Shown piece by piece: positions 29,885-42,712 of a stretch of DNA of 64,000 nt (position 1 is the stretch's first letter; each line of letters starts with the position of its first letter). The position numbers and the translations under genes were made by a program. The DNA lies in the NCBI GenBank assembly GCA_017451645.1, contig JAFTNZ010000019.1, positions 1 to 64,000 of the forward strand. Direction: 5' to 3'. The notes under the pieces are model-generated. The model was not told where the DNA came from, did no database searches, and saw only the letters and a program-made list of their open reading frames with translations. This stretch comes from Bacteroidaceae bacterium. Lineage in GTDB: Bacteria > Bacteroidota > Bacteroidia > Bacteroidales > Bacteroidaceae.

Positions 29885-30081
29885 GGACGGTTTTCTGTTT
29901 CATAGTCTAAATCAATAGACACCTTTTTTGAAAGCTCCCTGAAAGTCTTTACACTTTCGTCATTTCCATCCTGATATTGTGTTTGACGGTATTCAGCCAT
30001 CCGGTGCGAATGCTGACCTCTGAACACGGCCACGGTGTTTTCCACCGCATTCGTCTGATACTGTTGGATTTTAAATTTCAT
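29885..30081 (-). pseudogene. 5' remnant of a helicase/type III Res-like gene, cut by the MITE
   Basis: From ATG at 30081 (MKFKIQQYQTNAVENTVAVF) about 65 codons remain before the MITE. The start resembles N-termini of type III Res/DEAD helicase subunits, which begin with a similar FKIQQYQT-AVE pattern. That link is from memory and moderate. Inside the MITE the frame runs on to a stop at 29782. With the MITE removed, the frame continues only into the antisense of recG, so the 3' part of the gene was lost independently. Its ATG overlaps the zeta-like toxin gene by 11 bases. Confidence 0.55.
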
Positions 30082-30691
30082 CTTCGGTGTCGGGTAATAT
30101 GGCTTGTGCCCATTCAGGCACATCGGTTACATACATTTTACCCATAACACCATTCACTAAACGGAATTGTAGTTTTGCTTCTTCTCCATCCACTGAGTTG
30201 TCATAGACATAGAGACGGTCAACAAAACAGGAAACCTTTATGCAATTATAGATAGATTTTCTGTATCTCGAAACGATTTTGGTAATAGGAACATCATGTC
30301 CTCCTTTCATTACACGACCTGCTATTCGCGCCGCATTGATAGTCGGATTTGCAGTAGCAATAAAGAAAACTCTTATAAAGAAGCCCGCTTCCTTTGCACG
30401 CAAGATGAAATCGACTTTATCGTCTGCAGACATCACCGTTTCAAAGATGAGACTTCGCTTTTCAGCCAAACATCTTTCTCTCCATTCAGCACAATAGTTT
30501 GCGGCACTAAGCACTGCTTCTTTGGAGTTCCAATCTCCAAACATCTCTTTTGCCACATTGTCTGGATTAACATATACAGAATCCTCTACCCATTCATGTT
30601 TTAGGAGTCGTGAAGTCACTGAAGTCTTCCCCGACCCGTTAGGTCCGGCAATAACAATCAGCAACGGACGGTGCTCTGTTGCATTACCCAT
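30071..30691 (-). CDS. Zeta-toxin-like P-loop kinase
   Basis: This 206-residue protein has a Walker A (VIAGPNGSGKTSVTSRLL, about residues 13-30), then DSVYVNPDNVAKEMFG and SLIFETVMSADDKVDFI, the pattern of zeta toxins, which phosphorylate UDP-N-acetyl sugars. The catalytic activity is inferred. Its ATG overlaps the upstream antitoxin-like gene by 8 bases, the usual toxin-antitoxin layout. Such proteins are also found as plain kinases, so toxicity is not proven. Confidence 0.85.
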   Translation of the reverse strand: MGNATEHRPLLIVIAGPNGSGKTSVTSRLLKHEWVEDSVYVNPDNVAKEMFGDWNSKEAVLSAANYCAEWRERCLAEKRSLIFETVMSADDKVDFILRAKEAGFFIRVFFIATANPTINAARIAGRVMKGGHDVPITKIVSRYRKSIYNCIKVSCFVDRLYVYDNSVDGEEAKLQFRLVNGVMGKMYVTDVPEWAQAILPDTEDEI

Positions 30692-30893
30692 TGACTATAC
30701 AGGTTTGACGGTTCGACCATTCTTTCTTTATCGCTCTTGCTTCGCGATTCAAAGATTCGAAAAACTCACCCATTGCCTTCTCGTTACTTTCACGAGCTTC
30801 TTGGGCAACTTCTTTCATCAGTTGGCTTAGCATTTCATCACTTGGCTCTTCACCAACACCGAATCTGTATGATTTCATTTCCTTCTCTGACAT
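30684..30893 (-). CDS. Putative antitoxin partner of the zeta-like kinase
   Basis: This is a 69-residue acidic protein rich in E and K (SDEMLSQLMKEVAQEARESN), likely all-helical, with no DNA-binding motif seen. It lies directly upstream of the kinase and overlaps it by 8 bases. It is preceded by AAAGGAG with 7 bases to the ATG, an unusually good Shine-Dalgarno sequence for Bacteroidota. Antitoxin is a call by context, not by homology. Confidence 0.68.
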   Translation of the reverse strand: MSEKEMKSYRFGVGEEPSDEMLSQLMKEVAQEARESNEKAMGEFFESLNREARAIKKEWSNRQTCIVNG

Positions 30894-31196: not shown

Positions 31197-31492
31197 ATGG
31201 GACAGTTGGCTTTCTTGAAAATGTTCTTGTTGGTTTCAATTCCGACAGATATTAATGACAACCGTCGCCACATACACGTATTCCGGAAAGGAACAAGGCA
31301 TATGCGTTCTATTGCTAAAATATGGATTGAACAAAATGGTCGAAAGTGTGTAGAGATTGCAGATCCCAACTAAGTGCCAAGGATAATGAAATGATAGTCA
31401 ACGCCATCGAAAAGCACTGGGAGTTTATTAACGAACAGATTTCTAAAACTTTCCGAGGTGAAAAGACGAAAGTAAAGAACATAGAAAAATAA
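31197..31492 (+). pseudogene. DUF4160-like gene with a frameshift
   Basis: The frame from ATG at 31197 runs MGQLAFLKMFLLVS to NRRHIHVFRKGTRHM and AKIWIEQNGRK, then stops at CCC AAC TAA (31371-31373). One base back, the next frame continues LSAKDNEMIVNAIEKHWEFI to TAA at 31490-31492, which fits the C-terminus expected of DUF4160 proteins. So a base is missing near 31370, or a -1 shift occurs; no classic slippery heptamer is present. DUF4160 genes often pair with DUF2442 genes, as here. The partner starts 6 bases after the end. Confidence 0.7.
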
Positions 31493-31498
31493 CTGATT

Positions 31499-31738
31499 AT
31501 GTGCAAGATGAATAATGTGTCGGTAGGGATAAAGAAATTGGATTTTTCTTCATTCCGTGGAAAGATGGCTGCCTCATTGACGGATGGTCGCCAAGTCATT
31601 GTGCCTCTCAGTTTCTTTCCTGAAATCAAGAACCTTTCACTGAAGCAACGTTCCGAATGGATGATTTTGGATGACCAGTATTTTACCTTTGCCGATTTAA
31701 GCAAAGTTTATTCGGTATGTGAACTGTTAAGGCAATAA
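31499..31738 (+). CDS. DUF2442-like small protein
   Basis: This is a 79-residue protein with the DUF2442 core pattern DGRQVIVPLSFFPEIKNLS, then RSEWMILDDQYFTFADLS. DUF2442 and DUF4160 genes commonly sit side by side and have been proposed as toxin-antitoxin-like modules, without firm proof that I know of. Its partner here is frameshifted, so this gene may be an orphan survivor. ATG at 31499 is used; a later ATG (31508, MNNVSVG) is possible. Confidence 0.75.
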   Translation: MCKMNNVSVGIKKLDFSSFRGKMAASLTDGRQVIVPLSFFPEIKNLSLKQRSEWMILDDQYFTFADLSKVYSVCELLRQ

Positions 31739-31855
31739 TATCTACTTTAGAAAATCCGAACAAAAATGGTATCACGTTTATTTCTTACTGCCTTGTAATG
31801 TATAACCGAGTGGCGCAACGAGACGTTGTGACCTCTCATAAACATTCAAGGCTGT

Positions 31856-32154: not shown

Positions 32155-32599
32155 TCACATCGGGGTATTGATAAAGACATGTTTGTTACCCCGTTTTGCC
32201 TTTATATGTTTTTTTGCATATTTATAACAATCATAACAAAGGTGCAAGTTACATGAATCATCATAAATCACTTTGCCATACTTCTTCTTTTTATGGCAAC
32301 CGTCACATATAAAAGGAGATTTGCCACGATAAGTCTGTTCGCCAAGCCTTTTATCAAGAACTCGAATTGTTTCCCTTATCCTTTTTTTATCGAATTGACA
32401 AGGAATAGTTTGGTCCTTTTTATACGGTTCCTCATGTTTTACCTTGGATAGTTCTGCCAATAATTCATTACCTTCGCTTACAACAAAAGCTCCCGGATGT
32501 GATTCTATTTTAGCTTTATTGGTTAAAGTGCTTTTCCTCATAATGTTTAAGGACTCCACCTATTATAGTCTTACCACATATTCTACATACTTTCCCCAT
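32155..32599 (-). pseudogene. Zinc-finger protein gene, split by a frameshift, last in the RM operon
   Basis: The gene probably starts at ATG 32599, 5 bases after the Res stop: MGKVCRICGKTIIGGVLKHY, then EEKHFNQ and TAA at 32516-32518. It shows CxxC and HxxxxH zinc ligands. The +1 frame overlaps and runs on as NKAKIESHPGAFVVSEGNEL to ICDGCHKKKKYG and SCNLHLCYDCYKYAK, a second Cys-rich site, ending at 32155. Joined by one skipped base, the two make one protein with zinc sites at both ends. The second frame could also be translated from ATG 32541. Function is unknown; a nuclease or DNA-binding role is only a guess. Confidence 0.6.
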
Positions 32600-32604
32600 A
32601 AATG

Positions 32605-35600
32605 TTATTTCGTTAGAAGTTCACTTAATTCCGCATATGAAGAGACTATATCAAATTTGAGATTGCCACCTGAAATGGATTCAAAATGTTTTCTTGCACA
32701 ATCAATCTTGGACTCTTCTACACCTCGCAAGTCAGCTGATTTCATTTCATACTTTGTGGCACCTTTGGTTTCTGCTACAAAATAGACGTGTTTGACCGCT
32801 CCTTCTCGGAATGCTATCGCCCAGTCGGGATTATAATGTCCCATGGGAGTATTGATATAGAAACCACGTGGAAGTTTGGTATAGACTACTACATCTTCCT
32901 GCTTCTCCAATTGTTCTGCGAATGGTTTCTCAGTTCCCACGCTATCAACTACCACCAAATCATAGAGTGATTTCACTGATTCAATGGCATTGTCACCGAG
33001 TTTACCTCTGATAGTATTCTCCGTAAAGATTGATTCATCGAAGGTGTCGTCCAACTTATGGTACTCAATATGCTTTATCACGGCAAATGCCTTTACTTCG
33101 TTGATGAGTTTGCCCACCTTGATGATAAACTCTTCAGGATTGAGTTTAAATTGATGGAAGGTTGTTTGCTTAATTCCTGTAAGTATTTCCACTATCGCTT
33201 TACGTGTAAGTCCTGTTGCTTCTACAAAGCGACCGACAAGATCATATTTAACGTTATCGCCCACAGATTCGCTCACATGAATAGTACGAACTTTTCCTGC
33301 GGTCATGGCAGTTCCAGATTCCAATGATTCCTTATCACGAATAGTCTCCAGTGTACCAGTGCCAACAATAATGCGGATTTCAGTTACACTTAGGAACTTG
33401 TCTATAGCCTTAATGGCGTTTTGCACCAATTCTGTTGTGTCAAAGTTTACTGTATAGAATGTACGTGTATTAATGCGTTTCCACAATTCCTGGAATTCTT
33501 GTTTCTTGAATTTACTTTCATCAAACTTTGCTTCACGATGCTTACGAGCGTTATCAGGTTTAAGAGCATCAGGATTAAACACCTTATCAAGAACAGAAAC
33601 AATACTTTCTTTGGCATCATTGTACTCTCCAAAGTCAAGAGTTCCTTGTTTCTTATCCTCAAAGTATTTTGGCGTAAGTTTTCCTCTTTTTACATAACCG
33701 CTTGAAATCAATTCTTCATGAACAGCTACGGCCAGAGTGGTAGAAAGTGTTTTCTTTTCGCCCGAAGCGAATACGAAGGTCTTACCTTCAAATAGATGGG
33801 CAGTGACTATAATCGGGCGAGTAGAAATAGCTTGAGCCATTTCGTCCTGCAAGCCTTTTGAGAAGTCTTCATAACTTTCACTTGCTATGATGGTAAGGAT
33901 ATTGGTATCAAATACTGCCGAACCAAGCAAGTCTTCATCTTGGCGTTCTCCGTTTTGGTTTACACACAGACGCATACCACGACCCACTTCCTGACGTTTC
34001 TTGGTTTCGTTGTCCGAATTCTTGAGCGTACAGATTTGGAATACGTTAGGATTATCCCATCCCTCTTTCAACGCAGAGTGTGAGAAAATGAAGCGCACTT
34101 GCGAACCTTTAACAGCTGGATCAAGCGACAACAAGGCTTCTTTATCCTTCATGATAAGCGTGTAAGCATCTACATCGGCACTATCCGTAGAACCACGTTC
34201 CACTTTTGAATTGATAAACTTACCCTTTTTGTCACGAGAAAAATATCCCTGATGGGTCTTGGCCACATCAATACCAGAAATGTAGCGAAGATACTTTTCA
34301 TCCCCGAACGTTGGTTGCATCTCTTGCATCACACGGATATACTCCTCCTCAAACATCTTGGCATATTCACCTAATTCGTGTCCGTCTGTGTTGTAAACAC
34401 GATAGTTCTCCACATGGTCAATAAAGAAGAGCGACAGCACCTTAATACCTTTGGGATAAAGAGAGCGTTCACGCTCGATATGAGTGCGTATCGTTTCACG
34501 TATCTGAATACGACGGATAAGTTTTTCATTGATGGAGCCAACCATTTCGCCCTCATACAAAGTAGTGTCATTGAGTAGATGGATGAATCCGTTTACTCCG
34601 TCTATGCGGTCAATGATGTATCCGTGGCGATATTCTTCTAATCCTTCACTATACTCAAACAAATCTGTTCCCTCTCCCACAAGTTTGGAAGTTTGTTTGG
34701 TACCTGATGCTGTTTTCACATCAAAACTTATTCTTGCTTGTGGTGCAGCTCCATTCTTACCTGGAATGATCTTTTCAAGATACACGAAGCCATTTGTGGC
34801 GGTAGAACCTTGTTGCTTCACACCCAACACTTCAATCTTCTTGACCAGTTTCTTGTTGAGTGCATCAATGGCATCGAGGCGATATACTTGGTTGTAGATA
34901 TCCTCCTTACGGTGTGTGGCACTATAGAGCAGAGAGAACAACGGTTTGAACTCCTTCAACTTCTGACGAGTGGCATTGTTACGGTCAGCACCCAATACAC
35001 TTTGAGGTTCGTCGATAATCAAGATAGGATTAGTAGCAGCTACTACTTGAAGTGGTACACGATAACCAAACTCTTCCAACTGTCGGGTAAATCGTTTGGC
35101 ATCCTCACCACGTGCATTGAAAGCTTGTGTATTGATAACCATCACATAGATGTTAGGGTTGGTCGCAAAACTCTCAATAGGCGAAAGGTTCTTGCTATCA
35201 TACACAAAACTTTCCATCGGTTTGTTGTACTCCTCAGCAAAGTGCTCTTTCATTATTTCAAGACTCTTCACCACACCTTCACGAATGGCAATGCTTGGCA
35301 CTACAATGATGAACTTTGTCCATCCATAGAGCTTGTTGAGTTCATACATTGTTTTGATATAGGTGTAAGTCTTACCCGTACCTGTCTCCATCTCAATGGT
35401 AAAGTTCAATCCCTCGCCCACGATATTGGTTATCGGTTCAAGGTCTTGACTCATCTGAATCTCGCAGATGTTTTGTACTAAAGATTCTTTGTCAAGCATG
35501 ATAGGCTCGTTGCGGAAAGCCGTGATGTCATTATCAAATGAGGTCTGCCGAGAATCAGTTCTTCCTCTATCATAGCGGTAGGCAAAACCATCGCTATAGC

Positions 35601-35676
35601 GTTGGCCCACGAAGATGCCAGTTACCGCACGAGCTGCATCACGCTGAAAACTTTGATGTTTGAATTTTAGTTTCAT
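32605..35676 (-). CDS. Type III-like restriction subunit Res (helicase-nuclease)
   Basis: This 1023-residue protein has an SF2 helicase core: Walker A EMETGTGKTYTY (about residues 95-106), the DExx box IIDEPQSVLG, SATHRKED, the late VGRGMRLCVNQNG, and a C-terminal PD-ExK-like nuclease (HYNPDWAIAF, then YFVAETKG). Type III Res proteins translocate or slide on DNA and cut with Mod. It starts 12 bases after the Mod stop. The order Mod then Res is canonical, but the three upstream genes are not. Nuclease residues look intact by eye. Confidence 0.93.
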   Translation of the reverse strand: MKLKFKHQSFQRDAARAVTGIFVGQRYSDGFAYRYDRGRTDSRQTSFDNDITAFRNEPIMLDKESLVQNICEIQMSQDLEPITNIVGEGLNFTIEMETGTGKTYTYIKTMYELNKLYGWTKFIIVVPSIAIREGVVKSLEIMKEHFAEEYNKPMESFVYDSKNLSPIESFATNPNIYVMVINTQAFNARGEDAKRFTRQLEEFGYRVPLQVVAATNPILIIDEPQSVLGADRNNATRQKLKEFKPLFSLLYSATHRKEDIYNQVYRLDAIDALNKKLVKKIEVLGVKQQGSTATNGFVYLEKIIPGKNGAAPQARISFDVKTASGTKQTSKLVGEGTDLFEYSEGLEEYRHGYIIDRIDGVNGFIHLLNDTTLYEGEMVGSINEKLIRRIQIRETIRTHIERERSLYPKGIKVLSLFFIDHVENYRVYNTDGHELGEYAKMFEEEYIRVMQEMQPTFGDEKYLRYISGIDVAKTHQGYFSRDKKGKFINSKVERGSTDSADVDAYTLIMKDKEALLSLDPAVKGSQVRFIFSHSALKEGWDNPNVFQICTLKNSDNETKKRQEVGRGMRLCVNQNGERQDEDLLGSAVFDTNILTIIASESYEDFSKGLQDEMAQAISTRPIIVTAHLFEGKTFVFASGEKKTLSTTLAVAVHEELISSGYVKRGKLTPKYFEDKKQGTLDFGEYNDAKESIVSVLDKVFNPDALKPDNARKHREAKFDESKFKKQEFQELWKRINTRTFYTVNFDTTELVQNAIKAIDKFLSVTEIRIIVGTGTLETIRDKESLESGTAMTAGKVRTIHVSESVGDNVKYDLVGRFVEATGLTRKAIVEILTGIKQTTFHQFKLNPEEFIIKVGKLINEVKAFAVIKHIEYHKLDDTFDESIFTENTIRGKLGDNAIESVKSLYDLVVVDSVGTEKPFAEQLEKQEDVVVYTKLPRGFYINTPMGHYNPDWAIAFREGAVKHVYFVAETKGATKYEMKSADLRGVEESKIDCARKHFESISGGNLKFDIVSSYAELSELLTK

Positions 35677-35688
35677 AGTGACAACCCA

Positions 35689-37599
35689 TTAGATTACATG
35701 AACACGATTCTTTACTACCTCTTCACTCCATCCGCACTTCTGTTTGAAGAGTTCAAACAAGTTCATCTTCAATGGAGCATCGCTAAAGCAACTATCACGG
35801 AATACCACTCGCAACGGCATAAGTTCTGCAATAGCGGTAATGATTTCTTCGTTTACATTTTCAGCGAAGCACGCCACAAGGTCGCCATCATTCACATTAT
35901 ATATGGTTTTGCCTGATACCTCGAAGTTACTCAAAGGCAATGATAACTGCACGCCCCAATCAAGCATACAACCAAAGAGCAAACTTAAATCAGAAGTGCT
36001 GTCTTTGATGTTTGAAACCTGTGAGAATAGGTCTGCTTGCGAAAGGTCGTTAGGAGAGAAATAGACATTGTTCATAAAACTATCTTCGCACTTGAATACT
36101 CGGAAACCTGTATCAAGGTTCTGTGCTGCAAGCCCAAACTCTTCTTTAATTTTCTTACCAGCACGACGGATACGTTCTTTACCGATTTCGCAGATATTTT
36201 TGTAGCCAGCTTTGTAGGCTTCGCTACTTTCATCAGTTTTCTCGGGTATTTGCACCATAATAAATTTGCGATTGCCTCCATCTTCTGCATTACATTTTAT
36301 GATCGCATGGGCTGTAGTTGATGAGCCACTAAAGAAATCAAGAATAATATCATCATTTTCAACATTACCTATCTGAATCATCCTTTTTATCATTTCTAAT
36401 GGCTTCGGTGTCTCAAAAACTTTTTCTGGAATTAAGGCTTTCAAATCAATAGATGCCTTTTTGTTGCCTTCAATATCAGTCCACAAATTAGACGGCCTTT
36501 TAGTTCTACCCTCTAGATAGAATTTGTAATATATTCCATATCCCTTATCCGTTTTTTTGAAATATATCAAATTGTCTTTAAGCATTTGCTTATAAGTTTC
36601 TTCTCCGACTCTCCATCTACTATCATAGCCAGTAGGACCTTTGGGATATACAATGTTGCCATCAGGAGTTTCTATTCCATAATACATACTTGGTCTATCT
36701 TCTCGTCTATCTTCTCCGCCAGTTCGTCTTAATTGTAGTATAGAGTATTTGCCTTTCTCATCTTGTAAATCATACCTTAATGTGTCCTTTTCGCTAAGTT
36801 CTACACCGCCAACTTCAAAACTTGTGTTTTTTGAATACATTAATGCATAATCAAATGATTTACCCATAGAGTTTGTGCCTTGTGCTGTAGTAGTGCCTGT
36901 GGCTCTACATATTTGTGCGATAAAATTAGACTCGCCAAAAATCTCATCGCATATTTTTTTAAGGTTGGTAATCTCATTGTCATCAATAGAAATATAGATT
37001 ACGCCATCATTGGTAAGTAATGAACGCGCAACTATTAGTCGTTGATAGATCATTGAACACCAATCTGAATGAAAACGACCTTCGCTATCATTATTCTTTC
37101 TGAAACGATTACCTAATTCATCAATATTCCCAGCTTCTAAATCATACCCATCTTTATCCATCGCAAAATCATCACGATACACAAAATCATTACCAGTATT
37201 ATAAGGAGGATCGATATATATCATCTTAACCTTACCCAAGTAGGACTTCTGCAAAAGTTTTAGCACTTCAAGGTTATCACCCTCGATGTAGAGGTTCTGA
37301 GTATTCTCCCAATCCACACTCTCTTCAGGACATGGACGAAGCGTTTTATTGATAGGGCGTGCAGCTTCACGACGAGCGGCATTCTTACCAACCCACTTGA
37401 AACCGTATTCTTCATCTGCACCCTCGTAGGCATTATCACCAAGGAGTTCACGAAGCGTATTGAAATTTATCTTATGTGCTATCTTTCCTGTCTTATCATC
37501 ACGCACCTCGGTAAATGCCGATGGCATAATCTGATAAAGAGCTTCAAGGTTAAGTTCGCAACCCGAAGCTGAGGTCAGTTCCATTTTCTTGAGTTCCAT
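35689..37599 (-). CDS. Type III-like adenine methyltransferase Mod
   Basis: This 636-residue protein is of the beta class of N6-adenine methyltransferases: the catalytic DPPYNTG is at about residues 130-136 and the SAM-binding DFFSGSSTTAHAI comes later, with the target-recognition region between them. It methylates the site that Res leaves alone when modified; the site cannot be predicted. It has no simple-sequence tract that would suggest phase variation. Start ATG 37599 has an alternative five codons later. It lies 15 bases after the DUF4391 gene. Confidence 0.93.
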   Translation of the reverse strand: MELKKMELTSASGCELNLEALYQIMPSAFTEVRDDKTGKIAHKINFNTLRELLGDNAYEGADEEYGFKWVGKNAARREAARPINKTLRPCPEESVDWENTQNLYIEGDNLEVLKLLQKSYLGKVKMIYIDPPYNTGNDFVYRDDFAMDKDGYDLEAGNIDELGNRFRKNNDSEGRFHSDWCSMIYQRLIVARSLLTNDGVIYISIDDNEITNLKKICDEIFGESNFIAQICRATGTTTAQGTNSMGKSFDYALMYSKNTSFEVGGVELSEKDTLRYDLQDEKGKYSILQLRRTGGEDRREDRPSMYYGIETPDGNIVYPKGPTGYDSRWRVGEETYKQMLKDNLIYFKKTDKGYGIYYKFYLEGRTKRPSNLWTDIEGNKKASIDLKALIPEKVFETPKPLEMIKRMIQIGNVENDDIILDFFSGSSTTAHAIIKCNAEDGGNRKFIMVQIPEKTDESSEAYKAGYKNICEIGKERIRRAGKKIKEEFGLAAQNLDTGFRVFKCEDSFMNNVYFSPNDLSQADLFSQVSNIKDSTSDLSLLFGCMLDWGVQLSLPLSNFEVSGKTIYNVNDGDLVACFAENVNEEIITAIAELMPLRVVFRDSCFSDAPLKMNLFELFKQKCGWSEEVVKNRVHVI

Positions 37600-37614
37600 A
37601 TATCTTATTGTTTG

Positions 37615-38226
37615 TTATTTCAGGTTCGATAATTGTTTTTTCAGTGATTTTATCTCGGCATTGATTTCCATTTGCTTGTTGAATTGTTTTTCCTTATTCA
37701 ACTTCTTCGTCAGTGAGGCAATTTCTGTTTTCAATTTGGTTCGTACATCCTCTACCTTGATTTGTTCCGCAAGGGTATTGCCTTCTGCAACTTCAATCTC
37801 TCCGATATGGGTCACAATATTCTCCCACACAGCATCGAGATTCAATCCCGATAAGGGAAGCGTGGCCTCTTTTGTATCTTGCCAAGCCGACGAAATGAGT
37901 TTGGTATGGTATATTGCAAACTGTGTTTGCTCCTCGAATTGTAGGGCAAACACCATTCGTTGCGGAATAAGTTTGGTAAGCAGTGCTATATTTTTGTTGT
38001 CGTACTCCTTGCGTTTCAGTTGTACGGCAAGCAGATAAAATTCCTTCACCTCAGCCCCAGCATTCAGTGCAGGCACAGTGGAGGTTGATACAACCGCCAC
38101 AATGTCTATACGTGCAATGTCTGCATCGAAACTCTCACGTTGCGAGGGCTTCAACTCATACTTTGCATAGATTGCTTTCTTGGGCAACTGCTTCCGAACT
38201 TCTGTCGTCTGTGGTAGGCCGTACAT
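37615..38226 (-). CDS. DUF4391-like protein
   Basis: This is a 203-residue protein. The first 150 residues form a mixed alpha/beta domain (MYGLPQTTEVRKQLPKKAIY, IDIVAVVSTSTVPALNAG, FYLLAVQLKRKEYDNKN) and the last 50 are a coiled coil (KLNKEKQFNKQMEINAEIKS). It resembles the DUF4391 family, which I recall next to SNF2 helicases and type III Mod/Res genes. No biochemical role is known to me. It lies 3 bases after the membrane protein gene, so it is firmly part of this operon. Confidence 0.8.
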   Translation of the reverse strand: MYGLPQTTEVRKQLPKKAIYAKYELKPSQRESFDADIARIDIVAVVSTSTVPALNAGAEVKEFYLLAVQLKRKEYDNKNIALLTKLIPQRMVFALQFEEQTQFAIYHTKLISSAWQDTKEATLPLSGLNLDAVWENIVTHIGEIEVAEGNTLAEQIKVEDVRTKLKTEIASLTKKLNKEKQFNKQMEINAEIKSLKKQLSNLK

Positions 38227-38229
38227 AAA

Positions 38230-39054
38230 CTACTGGTTTGGAGTTACATTTACATTGAGTTTTATTGGTAGAGGTTTGATTTCACCAACATACTGAACTC
38301 TTAATGTATTTGCTGTGATTACAGGCATATCATCAACTATGACATGGTTAGGTGAATTTATAATCTCCTCCAACCTAATTATGTCTGCATCATTGATATC
38401 AACCTCATTAGTATCTGTGCAGGACTTGAAAGTAGAAATAGTAGTCAATAGAACACCAGCAGCAGCTACCCAAGTTGCCCATTTTGCAGAACTAACCGAT
38501 TTGCGTGATAGCACGATTTCCTCACGCCTAAACTGTTGTTCTTCTGTTATATACCCACGAGTTTTGAATTCTTTTAGACTAGGCAATGGAAATACGATTT
38601 TGTATGCATACCTTTCTAATAGTTCTACTATATCTAAATTGAATAGGCTGTAGTCCACTTCGCTAAATGCGAGGATACTATCACCTATTTTCTCAATATA
38701 TTGATTACCCTCCTTGATGTATTTATCTTTATCGTAAAGCTGTTTTGGATATGTATCGTTTGCCGATAATACGGATTGAAGTTTTATATATCCCTCTTTG
38801 TCTAACACCTCTACCAAATACAAAAAATATGAAATATCAAAGTAGTTAACCATTATTCTGTCAAAATCTGGTTTGCCTTCTTTTCGAGGCGCATAAATTG
38901 ATATTTTGAAAGGATTAATATCCCATTCTACAGCAAATACGCTTAGCTCATTGCGCAGTAGACGAGCAATCTGAAGCCCTTGTAAATCGTGTGCCTCAGA
39001 TGCTTGGATAATACGATCTATAATTAGCCTATCAATAGAAGATAACTCTCTCAT
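38230..39054 (-). CDS. Single-pass membrane protein inside the RM operon (274 aa)
   Basis: I recognise no named family. Residues 1-180 look soluble and helical (SSIDRLIIDRIIQASEAHDL start, YFDISYFLYLVEVLDKEGY in the middle). One membrane helix follows at about 191-209 (KWATWVAAAGVLLTTISTF), then about 65 residues ending NVNVTPNQ. The gene starts 4 bases after the helicase stop and ends 3 bases before the DUF4391 start, so it is not an accidental insertion. It may tether the complex to the membrane or sense invasion, but this is inference. The C-terminal part is likely extracytoplasmic. Confidence 0.85.
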   Translation of the reverse strand: MRELSSIDRLIIDRIIQASEAHDLQGLQIARLLRNELSVFAVEWDINPFKISIYAPRKEGKPDFDRIMVNYFDISYFLYLVEVLDKEGYIKLQSVLSANDTYPKQLYDKDKYIKEGNQYIEKIGDSILAFSEVDYSLFNLDIVELLERYAYKIVFPLPSLKEFKTRGYITEEQQFRREEIVLSRKSVSSAKWATWVAAAGVLLTTISTFKSCTDTNEVDINDADIIRLEEIINSPNHVIVDDMPVITANTLRVQYVGEIKPLPIKLNVNVTPNQ

Positions 39055-39058
39055 ACTC

Positions 39059-42000
39059 CTACTTTATCACCAAAAAACATATCAATTCAAAATCATCAAG
39101 TCCCTTAATCTCCTCAGTAAAGAGTGAGCCTGTGGCGCCGCCAAGGAAAGAATCAATGTCGCTTTCTTCCTTTACGTCTATGATAGACGCAATGGCATCA
39201 CTCAGCAACTCGGAATAGTGTTGCATATTCTTACCGTCGCGGGTAATGCGGTTGAACTCTTTACATAGTTCCTTATTCGGGCTTGACTTTCCTTTGCACA
39301 AGTAACGGAGTCTGTCGAGCAACTCTTTTGGAGACAGATGATTGACAACAACTTCGCTATCATCAGAGATATAGACCAAATAGAATGGGTGTAAACGATT
39401 CTTGCGGTCGATGTTTACATTGTTGTTACGATTCTTTAGGACATACACCACACCTGGAGGACAACCCTCAGAAGCTGGAACAACAGCATGCAATCCAAAG
39501 GGTGTATGTTCAATGTTCGGATTATCCTGCATATAGGCAAGCAGGTCAAGACGGAACTCGTTCAATCCCAAGTCCATGATGCTGATGCCTGTGTTCATCT
39601 CTTCAATATCCACCACTTCACTTTGCAGGCGTTTGAGTTGTTCGCGACGATACTCCAAGTCTCCCTTTTCTTCGGGAGAAATGGGGTTGTCATCACCCGT
39701 ACTGGTCATTACAGATACTTTCATACGGGCTTCTACACGTCCTTTGAGGTCAATATATTCGTCCAGGTCCATATCGGGCCAATAGTTGACGAGTTGGATA
39801 ACATCATTGCGTGAGCCTATACGGTCGATACGTCCAAAGCGTTGAATGATACGCACAGGATTCCAGTGAATATCATAGTTGATAAGATAGTCGCAATCCT
39901 GAAGGTTCTGACCTTCGCTGATACAGTCGGTAGCAATCAGCACATCTATCTCCTCGTTTACATCAGGTAATAGTGCCGCCTTTTCCTTTGATAGCGGAGA
40001 AAATAAGGTGAGCAGCGTGTTGAAGTCAAGTTTTATGCGTTGGCGACTAGGTATTCTTACAGTACTTTTCGCCTCAGAGCTACCTGTGATAAGTGCAGTA
40101 TGCAGATTATGTTTCTCCTTTATACGCTCGGCAAGATTGTTGTAAAGGTATTCAGCTGTATCGCTAAAAGCCGTAAAAATGATTACCTTTTTGTTGTTGC
40201 CGTTTATTGGGTTGGTAAACTTATGGCGAAGGTCATCAATCAGTTGCAATAACTTGCTATCGTGTTCGGGAGTAATATCGGCAAGCATAAGGAGCAACAA
40301 CTTCAGTGTTTCAATGTCCTTATCGAGGTACTTCTTCCAGCCGATATAGTCCATATCTTCAAGAGCAATCTGCGTCTTCTTACCACCGATGAAAATATCC
40401 TCCTGCTCGTCAAGGTCAAGTCCGGCAGAGAAGTCATATTCATCTACCGTGGTTCGTGTAGTGCTACGCCCTGCCTCAAGTGCATTGATTTTCTCTACCG
40501 TAGCAGAAATAAAAACAAGGATGCGGTTCAATGACAGACGGAACGAATTGACAGAACTTTCAAGACGTTTGAGCAGATTGATGCTCATCAACTTGCGGAT
40601 ACCACGTTCACGTCCCTTCATGGTAAGTCCTGAATAGTCCTCTTCGCTTGTGATGTTTACGTATTTTGACAATCTGCTCGGTAGAATGAAGTCCGACGGA
40701 GTGTATATGGCCAAGTTGAGCACCGAGAGCAACAGATAGATGTCATTGTAGTTTATAGCACTATCAAGGTCGGTCAGGTGTGGACGACGAGCGATAGGTG
40801 TCAGTCGTGTGGGGAACTTACCGATGTCGGTGGTGTCATAATATTGCTCGATGTGCTTACGGCTCCGGGCAATGGTGACGCTATCAAGCACCTCAAAGAA
40901 ATCAAAACTCAAGCGTTCGAGCAGGCGTTTTGTAGTACGTTCTTCGGGAGGAAATTTAGACCAACGATTATATTCCGTTTGTGCCTGACGGAAAATATCT
41001 TCTATACTACTGCTTGTATTGAGCAAACCATCAATGTTTTCTGAATTTCCCTCGTATGCCAAAGCTATTTGGTTCTTCAAGTCGTTGAAACGATTGTTTA
41101 CAGGTGTGGCCGAGAGCATCAGTACCTTGGTTTTCACCCCCTTGCGGATAACCTTGTTGAGCAATTGCAGGTAGCGGTTCTCACGAGGATTCTCGTCATT
41201 CTCATCGGTGGTCACTTTGCCTCCGTTGCGGAAGTTGTGACTTTCGTCAATCACAACAAGGTCGTAGGCGCTCCAATTGATGTGGGTAAGATCGAGTCCG
41301 TTTGATATGCCTCCATTGCGAGACAAATCTGTATGATAAAGTACATCGTAGCGCAATCGATCGGCCACAATGGGATTGTTCAGGTAGTTGCTTCGATAGG
41401 TAATCCAGTTGTCGTTAAGTTTTTTGGGACAAAGTACGAGTACCGACTTGTTTCGGTTTTCGTAATACTTGATGACGGAAAGGGCGGTGAAGGTCTTTCC
41501 CAAACCTACGGAGTCGGCCAGGATGCAACCATTGTATTTTTCCAATTTGTTGATGATGGCCAGGCAGGCATCCTTCTGGAAGTTGTAGAGTTTGTTCCAA
41601 ATGACACTGTCCTTGAAGCCGGTGGCTTCGTTGGGCAGGGTGTCTTCGGAAAGGTCGTCGAGAAACTCGCGGAAGATATTGTAAAGGGTGACGAAGTAGA
41701 GGAAATCGGGGGCATTCTCTTTGTAGGCATTGGTGATGTTTTCGAGCACTTCGTCGGTGACTACCTGCATCTTGGCAGAGTCATTCCATAGTTGGTCAAA
41801 CAAGACCAAGAACTGTTGCGAATGGGGCGTTTCTGTTTTGATAACCATCGAGTAGGCATTGTTTCCACGTTCGCAACCCAAATCCACCGTGGTAAAACCG
41901 TTGATAGGTGTATAGTTCTTATCGTCGATATTGATAAAGCCCTGCATATATTCACCCGTGCGATTGCTCTTGAAGCAGGCCTTACGGCGTATCCACTCGG

Positions 42001-42313
42001 CACACTCGCGGGCAATGGCGCGTTGCGAAAGTTCGTTGCGGAGTTTTATCTCGAACTCTGAGCCATAGAGACTCCGCTCACGATTGAGACGGGGGATGTA
42101 GAACTCGCGCTTCTGTTTGTTGGCCTTCTCGGTGACGAAGGTGGGCGAGGTGAAGATGAAGCGGAGCTCTTCCACATCGGCCAATTGTTCCTTCAACTCC
42201 TCGAATGCATAGATGGAGAAGCACGAAGCGGCAATGGAGAGGCGGCTACCCGAGTGAATCTCAGTAGCAAGGTCGTCCTTCAACCGGAGGTGTATATTGT
42301 CAATCAGCTTCAT
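39059..42313 (-). CDS. PLD-like/SNF2-type helicase
   Basis: This 1084-residue protein has an N-terminal region (about 1-200) like phospholipase D-type domains that precede helicases in defence loci; I see no clear HKD motif, so it may be inactive. The SNF2-type SF2 motor follows: Walker A ADSVGLGKT at about 266-274, VVIDESHNFRNG (DESH box), LMLSATPVNN, and the motif VI helix IIQRFGRIDRIGS. Such enzymes are seen in several anti-phage systems, including DISARM-like loci. It is first in the operon. A hairpin with an AAGGA loop sits at the start codon. Confidence 0.9.
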   Translation of the reverse strand: MKLIDNIHLRLKDDLATEIHSGSRLSIAASCFSIYAFEELKEQLADVEELRFIFTSPTFVTEKANKQKREFYIPRLNRERSLYGSEFEIKLRNELSQRAIARECAEWIRRKACFKSNRTGEYMQGFINIDDKNYTPINGFTTVDLGCERGNNAYSMVIKTETPHSQQFLVLFDQLWNDSAKMQVVTDEVLENITNAYKENAPDFLYFVTLYNIFREFLDDLSEDTLPNEATGFKDSVIWNKLYNFQKDACLAIINKLEKYNGCILADSVGLGKTFTALSVIKYYENRNKSVLVLCPKKLNDNWITYRSNYLNNPIVADRLRYDVLYHTDLSRNGGISNGLDLTHINWSAYDLVVIDESHNFRNGGKVTTDENDENPRENRYLQLLNKVIRKGVKTKVLMLSATPVNNRFNDLKNQIALAYEGNSENIDGLLNTSSSIEDIFRQAQTEYNRWSKFPPEERTTKRLLERLSFDFFEVLDSVTIARSRKHIEQYYDTTDIGKFPTRLTPIARRPHLTDLDSAINYNDIYLLLSVLNLAIYTPSDFILPSRLSKYVNITSEEDYSGLTMKGRERGIRKLMSINLLKRLESSVNSFRLSLNRILVFISATVEKINALEAGRSTTRTTVDEYDFSAGLDLDEQEDIFIGGKKTQIALEDMDYIGWKKYLDKDIETLKLLLLMLADITPEHDSKLLQLIDDLRHKFTNPINGNNKKVIIFTAFSDTAEYLYNNLAERIKEKHNLHTALITGSSEAKSTVRIPSRQRIKLDFNTLLTLFSPLSKEKAALLPDVNEEIDVLIATDCISEGQNLQDCDYLINYDIHWNPVRIIQRFGRIDRIGSRNDVIQLVNYWPDMDLDEYIDLKGRVEARMKVSVMTSTGDDNPISPEEKGDLEYRREQLKRLQSEVVDIEEMNTGISIMDLGLNEFRLDLLAYMQDNPNIEHTPFGLHAVVPASEGCPPGVVYVLKNRNNNVNIDRKNRLHPFYLVYISDDSEVVVNHLSPKELLDRLRYLCKGKSSPNKELCKEFNRITRDGKNMQHYSELLSDAIASIIDVKEESDIDSFLGGATGSLFTEEIKGLDDFELICFLVIK

Positions 42314-42329: not shown

Positions 42330-42390
42330 CAGGGCTAACCGATACTGATAATCGTGTGGATGATTAAGTTTTTCTCTCAGGTACAGATAT

Positions 42391-42429
42391 AAAAAAGACG
42401 TGAAGCCCTGCACGGTCGCTCGCTTCACG
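42391..42429 (-). terminator. Terminator of the structured RNA
   Basis: CGTGAAGC (42422-42429 read on the minus strand) pairs with GCTTCACG (42399-42406), followed by TC and six T (42396-42391). A textbook intrinsic terminator between the RNA gene and the helicase gene. Confidence 0.85.
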
Positions 42430-42643
42430 CTTAGAGGCTCCTGAGAATTGCCCGAATATCGAAACGAGCAACTTCAGAAACCCCACGCCGAATGTATATA
42501 TAACATCCGGCTATACCAAAAGTTAGCCTTTGGCATACGGGTACACCAACGGCTGTCAAGCGGTAAAGCACAGGAATGTGTATATAACACACCCAAGGGG
42601 CATCTACCGTTGCTTTGTTTTTGATATTCGTTTTGAAATTTTC

Positions 42644-42712
42644 TCAGGATTTCCAAGCGTCAAAACCAAAGCGTCGTAAACGCCTTTTCATATATGTCCG
42701 CCGCCCTACCAT
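42644..42712 (-). CDS. Possible 22-aa leader peptide in the structured RNA
   Basis: ATG at 42712 to TGA at 42644-42646 encodes MVGRRTYMKRRLRRFGFDAW plus KS, a very basic peptide. GGAGG lies 4 bases before the ATG, inside a CCTCC-AC-GGAGG hairpin that could hide it. The stop codon falls in the RNA's closing stem. An internal ATG (42691) would give 15 residues. Whether it is translated is unknown. Confidence 0.35.
   Translation of the reverse strand: MVGRRTYMKRRLRRFGFDAWKS

Follow-up and report, generated by a model that had tools for sequence, protein, structure and literature searches.

Type III restriction-modification (R-M) systems are textbook two-gene systems. SauUSI, an ATP-dependent restriction endonuclease (PDB 7clg), carries a motor behind its N-terminal domain, and in DISARM (DrmD) and BREX a superfamily 2 (SF2) motor stands beside a methyltransferase. 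Here we describe a locus in a Bacteroidaceae bacterium (GenBank assembly GCA_017451645.1, contig JAFTNZ010000019.1, positions 1 to 64,000 of the forward strand; this 64,000-nucleotide stretch is the window) in which type III-like mod and res genes share an operon with genes for an SNF2-type helicase and a DUF4391 protein. The window belongs to contig C10 of a 2.5-Mb genome in 38 contigs with a completeness of 72.6%. Judged from its genes and those of its relatives, the locus is a type III restriction system with a helicase/DUF4391 add-on that recurs in several phyla, together with variable cargo.

The locus shares with EcoP15I-like Mod-Res systems the MTase_III and REase_III families with their motifs intact, but it differs in the recurring pair of helicase and DUF4391 genes and in the cargo slots inside the operon. 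PADLOC already has the helicase family and would call the Mod-Res pair type III; its profile C3a139 matches the helicase over the full length, but names a lone protein without a partner set, and the HKD label does not fit these helicases. With SauUSI the helicase shares the fold of the N-terminal domain, but it has no conserved HxK pair, has a DUF4391 partner and is tied to Mod-Res. DISARM DrmD and the BREX helicases give partial profile matches. DISARM was dropped on the DrmD score (150.3 bits versus a cut-off of 610) and with no DrmB among the matches listed for the six proteins of the operon, and BREX with no PglZ or BrxC among those matches, the other open reading frames (ORFs) at 28-46 kb having been judged by eye, without a scan, as too small or housekeeping. 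The NCBIfam PLD anti-phage protein NF042964 was also dropped (117.4 bits versus a curated 1100).

BREX-related Type-2 BR is reported to combine a Swi2/Snf2 helicase bearing an N-terminal HKD domain, described as the nuclease effector, with an N6-methyltransferase in a set that includes DUF3780, and BREX loci hold auxiliary and backup effectors (PMC12839542); the present locus differs by its Mod-Res, its DUF4391 and its degenerate PLD domain. A passage of a Cronobacter study places an SNF2 helicase in one integrative element together with a type III endonuclease and a Mod methyltransferase, and names no system there (PMC12757443), and the PLD-SNF2 pair beside a type IIG enzyme in a third report (PMC6098607) is a different set. 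No description of the four-gene set was met among the listings and passages covered by a literature search, which had supplements and subscription papers outside its range.

Operon layout and conservation of the four-gene order

The operon at 32155-42313 comprises the following genes, in the order of transcription.

39059..42313, minus strand: SNF2-type helicase, 1084 amino acids, N-terminal PLD-fold domain; first core gene (PADLOC C3a139, SNF2-rel_dom, Helicase_C)
38230..39054, minus strand: putative single-pass membrane protein, 274 amino acids; cargo in the helicase/DUF4391 slot (relatives in 6/80 loci)
37615..38226, minus strand: DUF4391 protein, 203 amino acids; second core gene (PF14335, E 1.5e-35)
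35689..37599, minus strand: Mod, type III-like DNA methyltransferase; third core gene (PADLOC MTase_III, E 2.5e-214)
32605..35676, minus strand: Res, type III-like restriction subunit; fourth core gene (PADLOC REase_III, E 4e-277; RE_endonuc, ResIII)
32155..32599, minus strand: zinc-finger gene in two pieces through a frameshift; cargo after Res (one open frame in locus L037)

An earlier, sequence-only reading of this DNA had described six minus-strand genes with gaps of 3-15 bases, with type III-like Mod/Res genes fused into their operon. All six ORFs are present in the ORF listing, and four of the five gaps agree (helicase to membrane protein, 4 bases; membrane protein to DUF4391, 3; DUF4391 to Mod, 15; Mod to Res, 12), but the listed zinc-finger ORF stands 45 bases from Res, and the genes are separate, with no fusion. 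When the six proteins were searched against defense collections, as that reading had advised, Mod, Res and the helicase found matches in PADLOC, which gives no cut-off (listings for Mod and the helicase hold the best 25 matches), and the membrane and zinc-finger proteins found no convincing family.

Used as a query against genome contigs, the helicase found 296 relatives, of which the best 80 (the closest, 65-94% identical) form our set of helicase loci. The order helicase-DUF4391-Mod-Res on one strand is found at 56 of these 80, so the proposed check of conservation in order came out in favor of these four genes. The other 24 loci hold helicase and DUF4391 (12 loci), three of the genes (7) or the helicase alone (5), and in them the available DNA stops before the absence of a lacking gene could be demonstrated; the roomiest of them (L047, L078 and L091) are occupied by other genes almost to the end. 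A core gene is demonstrably absent from none of the 80 loci, and DUF4391 is interrupted in one (L045).

Starting from DUF4391 leads to the same association. Among 395 sampled genomes of the phylum, the window's genome included, 27 contain a DUF4391 match and 24 exceed the cut-off. At 20 DUF4391 places from 17 genomes, the helicase adjoins in 18; the other two retain a 52-residue helicase fragment, and both also read a stop in DUF4391. Mod is in the locus at 19 of the 20 places, and the 20th is cut by a contig end. A permuted order, Mod-Res-helicase-DUF4391, occurs at L158, L160, L161 and L162, with a fifth place, L166, where Mod-Res is accompanied by a truncated helicase. L162 (genome G429) has two DUF4391 genes, one ahead of Mod and the other behind the helicase.

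The cassette is also found on mobile replicons. At E<=1e-50 the helicase matches 105 of 72,556 plasmid records, and 14 annotated records (13 plasmids and one phage) were picked from helicase matches for spread. Twelve of these carry the four genes in order, namely records from Escherichia, Enterococcus, Acinetobacter, an Erysipelothrix phage, Aeromonas, Lactococcus, Listeria, Mycolicibacterium, Vibrio, Paraburkholderia, Sulfitobacter and Methylotuvimicrobium; Mod is split in the Listeria record, an insertion sequence lies within the cassette in Acinetobacter and Sulfitobacter, and Lactococcus has two additional methyltransferase genes. The Desulforapulum record lists no Res, and that of Planktothrix has a different helicase (31% identity) without the four-gene set. 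Pfam confirms DUF4391 in all six plasmid or phage records tested, including two in which the protein is annotated as hypothetical (matched in its N-terminal part only, at 35 bits where the cut-off is 29.9) and two in which the annotation reads chemotaxis protein. The sequence-only reading had held that its extra genes were not hitchhikers, and for the helicase and DUF4391 this stands: both occur alongside Mod-Res across several phyla and under either of two gene orders.

Two further observations concern the plasmid copies. The replicon that carries the Escherichia coli cassette (L189, NZ_CP101235.1) is 115 kb long, also encodes repA, dnaE and a 5'-3' exonuclease, and looks like a phage-plasmid. 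Four plasmids (L218, L220, L221 and L226) carry a small helix-turn-helix gene immediately before the helicase, a possible control gene.

The helicase and DUF4391 as an optional pair

The window Res was compared with 393 genomes of the order; 60 match at 1e-30, and 24, the window's own included, are full length (one match of >=800 residues). Helicase orthologs (E below 1e-190, on the same contig as Res) were sought in the 60 Res-positive genomes, a design that cannot reveal a helicase-DUF4391 pair without Res. Among the 24 genomes with full-length Res, 11 have the helicase ortholog, and the same 11 have DUF4391 above the cut-off; the remaining 13, two of which have completeness of 74% and 68%, have neither. 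Twelve of these 13 regions were fetched and show Mod-Res, or Res alone where the contig ends. Because DUF4391 is found in 11/11 genomes with the helicase and in 0/13 without it, the two genes behave as a single paired add-on. The sequence-only reading had named Mod and Res conserved without the other genes as the outcome that would speak against it, and half of that outcome is thus realized, in 13 of the 24. Five further genomes combine a helicase ortholog with a split, partial or distant Res; DUF4391 exceeds the cut-off in three, falls below it in G406 and is missing from G629, where the helicase is truncated. Three of the 12 fetched regions, L174 (G658), L175 (G416) and L176 (G720), have a distant helicase ORF (68-93 bits, versus 1000+ for orthologs) near Mod and no DUF4391; this ORF may represent a further helicase partner for type III systems.

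Pairwise identities point to the same two units. Across 45 cassettes usable for all four proteins, the window included and ancestry uncorrected, Spearman coefficients are 0.84 for helicase-DUF4391, 0.75 for Mod-Res, 0.62 for helicase-Res and 0.51 for helicase-Mod. As partial rank correlations, given the other two proteins, helicase-DUF4391 (0.72) and Mod-Res (0.59) persist, DUF4391-Res stands at 0.31, and helicase-Mod (0.02) and helicase-Res (0.05) vanish. With the Mod recognition region omitted, DUF4391-Res is 0.25 and DUF4391-Mod 0.12; when, in addition, a single cassette is kept for each 90% helicase cluster (35 cassettes), the values are 0.19 and 0.16. The clearest single case of exchange is L049 versus L050, in which the helicases are 98% and the DUF4391 proteins 85% identical, and Mod and Res only 39% and 45%. 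Such comparisons show that Mod-Res can change beneath a paired helicase-DUF4391 add-on.

Mod and Res themselves have the anatomy of type III enzymes. Mod carries DPPY at residue 130 and FFSGS at 422 in the type III arrangement, and Res combines an SF2 ATPase (GTGKT at 99, DEPQ at 222) with a PD-(D/E)xK domain (PD...ExK at 950-971) and matches RE_endonuc at E 3.2e-31; the two genes adjoin on the same strand, as in a type III operon. Compared with Mod of L036 in 30-residue blocks, residues 241-420 are 10-33% identical, the edge block 211-240 is 57% identical and the other blocks are 77-100% identical, a pattern by which the Mod recognition region (about 240-420) is exchanged.

The helicase matches C3a139 ("HKD+Snf2") at E 1.3e-121, from residue 3 to 1083 of the protein and from 4 to 947 of the 948 profile positions; the E. 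coli member also matches over the full length, and the Mycolicibacterium member is covered over most of it. The predicted structure of the helicase N terminus is a PLD fold (predicted local distance difference test [pLDDT] 75.9, predicted template modeling score [pTM] 0.70). Its top PDB match is SauUSI (7clg; Foldseek E 7.2e-5), and the 15 PDB matches at E 0.001 are exclusively SauUSI or phosphatidylserine synthases. The earlier label "PLD-like" therefore describes the predicted fold well but not a catalytic activity: the first 220 residues of the window helicase contain no HxK, and the conserved HxK...D motif of an active PLD (HKD) nuclease is missing. In a motif comparison of 81 helicases and 13 more distant ones, none of the 81 has H or K at alignment columns 123 and 125, where the HxK site was placed by eye. 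An HxK tripeptide occurs at scattered positions in the first 220 or so residues of 4/81 helicases and of 4/13 distant ones. The ATPase motifs GLGKT, DESH and QRFGR (motif VI) are intact in all 81 and in the 13 others. The PLD-fold domain is predicted to be catalytically dead.

The DUF4391 model consists of an alpha/beta domain followed by a C-terminal helical hairpin (pLDDT 83.0, pTM 0.64) and has no PDB match at E<=0.001. By eye, the most constant stretch in distant members is the KQFNRKVELN-like portion of the hairpin. Identity as a PD-(D/E)xK nuclease was considered and not adopted, with weak fold matches and no conserved catalytic set seen, and a PADLOC match to Cas10b (E 0.014) is regarded as chance.

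Cargo, neighboring features and element E

Many relatives carry additional genes between the core genes. Of 140 predicted inserts, 120 (same strand, >=80 amino acids) were retained and 119 scanned, the one left out being a second Mod in L110. In the 56 complete loci, the helicase/DUF4391 slot is occupied in 13, DUF4391/Mod in 42 and Mod/Res in 27, and 52 have at least one such ORF; these values are upper bounds, since the cargo clusters of L037/L085/L094 and L088/L100 may be wrong-strand ORFs. The matches listed include Schlafen AlbA_2 (at least 8), AbiGi (at least 7), 23S_rRNA_IVP (at least 7), DUF4238 (at least 5), RhuM and AriA-type ATPases (at least 3 each), SIR2_2, TIR, YhcG and zeta toxin (at least 2 each) and AbiJ, HepT, GmrSD, Fic, YoeB, HicA and HicB (at least 1 each); in three of the scans the matches listed span 25 of 56, 194 and 120 families. 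In the Aeromonas plasmid, an AAA ATPase and a DUF4276 protein lie as a pair between Mod and Res, with HEC-01A and HEC-01B as best PADLOC matches; the ATPase matches AriA too. AriA is a component of PARIS, the phage anti-restriction induced system, and AriA-like guards set inside such an operon would be consistent with a backup function.

The membrane protein, called single pass for one hydrophobic stretch near residue 200, has relatives in 6/80 loci, five of them in the same slot. It was matched in four other genomes of the order, one weakly, and in one of the four (L206) the relative lies beside an N-terminal Mod fragment, read by eye. No convincing family was found in Pfam, NCBIfam or PADLOC, a Cmr5 match (PADLOC, E 0.0043) being regarded as chance. 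The zinc-finger gene has a relative in 1/80 loci (L037, 20127-20582), where it is one open frame. In the window, an N-terminal piece beginning MGKVCRICGK (CxxC...H-like) lies in a different frame with its start 5 bases beyond Res, and the listed ORF, which has no match in Pfam, NCBIfam or PADLOC at E<=0.1, is the C-terminal piece; the frameshift could be either real or an assembly error. The claim that these two proteins belong to one machine is not supported by these counts, and other accessory genes use the same slots. On present comparisons the membrane protein and the zinc-finger gene are variable cargo, like the Abi, toxin-antitoxin, SIR2, TIR and HEC-01/AriA-like genes of the slots.

Outside the six genes, four features of the window and one beyond it are relevant.

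30071..30893, minus strand: zeta-toxin-like gene with a small upstream ORF (putative antitoxin); cargo (Zeta_toxin, E 2.2e-12)
30691-30071, minus strand: zeta-toxin-like gene proper
29987..30081, minus strand: remnant, start of a second-lineage Res gene (tblastn and DNA match)
42386..42697, minus strand: element E, about 310 nt, structured, with a terminator-like hairpin at its end (nhmmer, covariation, folding z)
G000:C10:67044-72236 (L201 7045-12237): second restriction-like operon with the same leader element

The window is itself a mosaic, with the zeta-toxin-like gene just downstream of the operon; elsewhere this gene separates Mod from Res (L065, L106, L059 and L070), follows Res (L039) or precedes the helicase (L038). 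The remnant overlaps the end of the window copy and matches the Res start of L039 by tblastn (55% over 62 amino acids), with matches of 31-32 amino acids to many others. From these remains, an older Mod-zeta-Res arrangement may have been replaced by the present Mod-Res, leaving the scar of an earlier cassette. Between the operon and the zeta-toxin-like gene (31200-31740, plus strand) are frames resembling what we take to be a DUF4160-DUF2442 pair. The genes recG and ndk are about 230 bases apart in two relatives (G230 and G238) and 13.9 kb apart in the window, so the locus is probably an inserted island between them. Both genes are present in G351 and G347, not near each other, and ndk has no match in G394 and G777.

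Element E ends about 70 nt ahead of the helicase start, and its 310 nt are conserved and noncoding by the ORF listing. Of the 69 loci with >=400 bp of sequence ahead of the helicase, 22 have element E no more than 250 bp before that gene according to an nhmmer profile, which also detects it where an ordinary type III Mod is listed to start (L171) and behind Res (L036). It is predicted to form a rod of 83 pairs, 21 with changes on both sides; 94.9% of alignment cells are paired, against 34.7-48.2% when slid by 1-3 columns, a test that favors the structure because the latter was derived from the same 10-sequence alignment. Folding is 7.7 standard deviations below shuffles (z -7.7), and a terminator-like hairpin with a T run closes the element, by eye. 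A strong second copy on the same contig (L201 6844-7149) precedes a 390-amino-acid ORF and a 1336-amino-acid ResIII plus Eco57I-methylase protein, for which PADLOC gave no match at 1e-10. Copies elsewhere (L210 and L211 are among the copies) precede a C5 methyltransferase, a PLD-SNF2 helicase, a subtilase, a NusG-like gene and genes without a family; because of the last three, a role as a defense-only mark was rejected. A DNA match at 1e-8 occurs in 7/295 genomes of the order (few candidates scored per genome). Rfam gave no match for the window copy at gathering score or E<=1, and in a literature search limited to titles and the starts of abstracts, no element E-like RNA tied to restriction in Bacteroides was described. 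A leader RNA and a structured repeat are both possible identities for element E.

Proposed role of the pair and alternatives

The best explanation, to which we give about an even chance, is that helicase and DUF4391 form a non-nuclease motor/adaptor unit assisting Mod-Res restriction, with the extra genes as interchangeable cargo. From their families and intact motifs, Mod would methylate a DNA sequence set by its own recognition domain, and Res would be the ATP-dependent partner with the nuclease domain. The helicase-DUF4391 unit would work with the Res-Mod complex irrespective of sequence specificity, most likely remodeling or translocating DNA so that restriction passes bound proteins or inhibitors, with DUF4391 as its likely bridge to Mod-Res. 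Taken together, a nuclease domain predicted to be dead, a motor with intact motifs and a partner in which no active site is evident favor a helper of the Res-Mod complex over a second cutter. The membrane protein, the zinc-finger gene and the zeta-toxin-like gene would be interchangeable cargo, possibly backup effectors when restriction is blocked. Several points weigh against this explanation. Because over half of the full-length Res genomes have Mod-Res without the add-on, it is optional, and type III restriction as such can do without it. The tie of DUF4391 to the Mod-Res pair is weak, in correlations uncorrected for ancestry, and about equally high for Mod and Res in the thinned set. The scattered HxK tripeptides mean that a few helicases may be active, and a role in modification, regulation or self-protection would produce identical conservation.

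One such role, a minor but real contender, is that of a safety or timing module, in which helicase-DUF4391 would restrain Res or aid Mod on host DNA, for example freshly replicated DNA or the DNA of an invading plasmid, instead of strengthening attack. The many copies on plasmids, where self-damage upon entry is problematic, would suit it, as would the weak tracking of Mod-Res by DUF4391, but stand-alone Mod-Res systems manage without the pair. It is improbable that helicase and DUF4391 are an independent second restriction effector, SauUSI-like or type IV-like, whose only tie to the type III system is a common operon: SauUSI is the best fold match and Mod-Res of this family also stand alone, but the HxK is unconserved across 94 helicases and Mod is in the locus at 19 of 20 DUF4391 places, the 20th being cut by a contig end. 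We give little credence to an ordinary type III system whose neighbors are all hitchhikers in a defense island, an account that fits the membrane protein, the zinc-finger gene and the zeta-toxin-like gene but is largely refuted already for helicase and DUF4391, which pair strictly among the full-length Res genomes and persist in several phyla and two gene orders. Least probable is the original proposal that all six genes are one machine. Tight spacing in the window genome and the recurrence of membrane protein relatives, mostly in one slot, speak for it; however, no such relative was seen in 74/80 loci and no zinc-finger relative in 79/80, in both cases partly through contig ends, and the zinc-finger gene is frameshifted in the window.

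Returning to the motor/adaptor explanation, a broader and more tentative extension, which we think has the odds against it, is that helicase and DUF4391 are a portable, specificity-independent module on changing Mod-Res pairs across phyla. The four genes would then make up a separate class of ATP-dependent restriction, with four subunits and an operon that docks backup defense genes; expression of this and further restriction operons in Bacteroidales would be gated by a structured leader RNA that has a terminator of its own. Little has been written on DUF4391, a term that 1 paper contains in the full-text library searched, and the cargo slots supply candidates for backup effectors linked to a single host system. 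Since the four-gene form occurs in several phyla, with the motor and DUF4391 kept while Mod and Res are exchanged, some type III enzymes may need or use a general helper.

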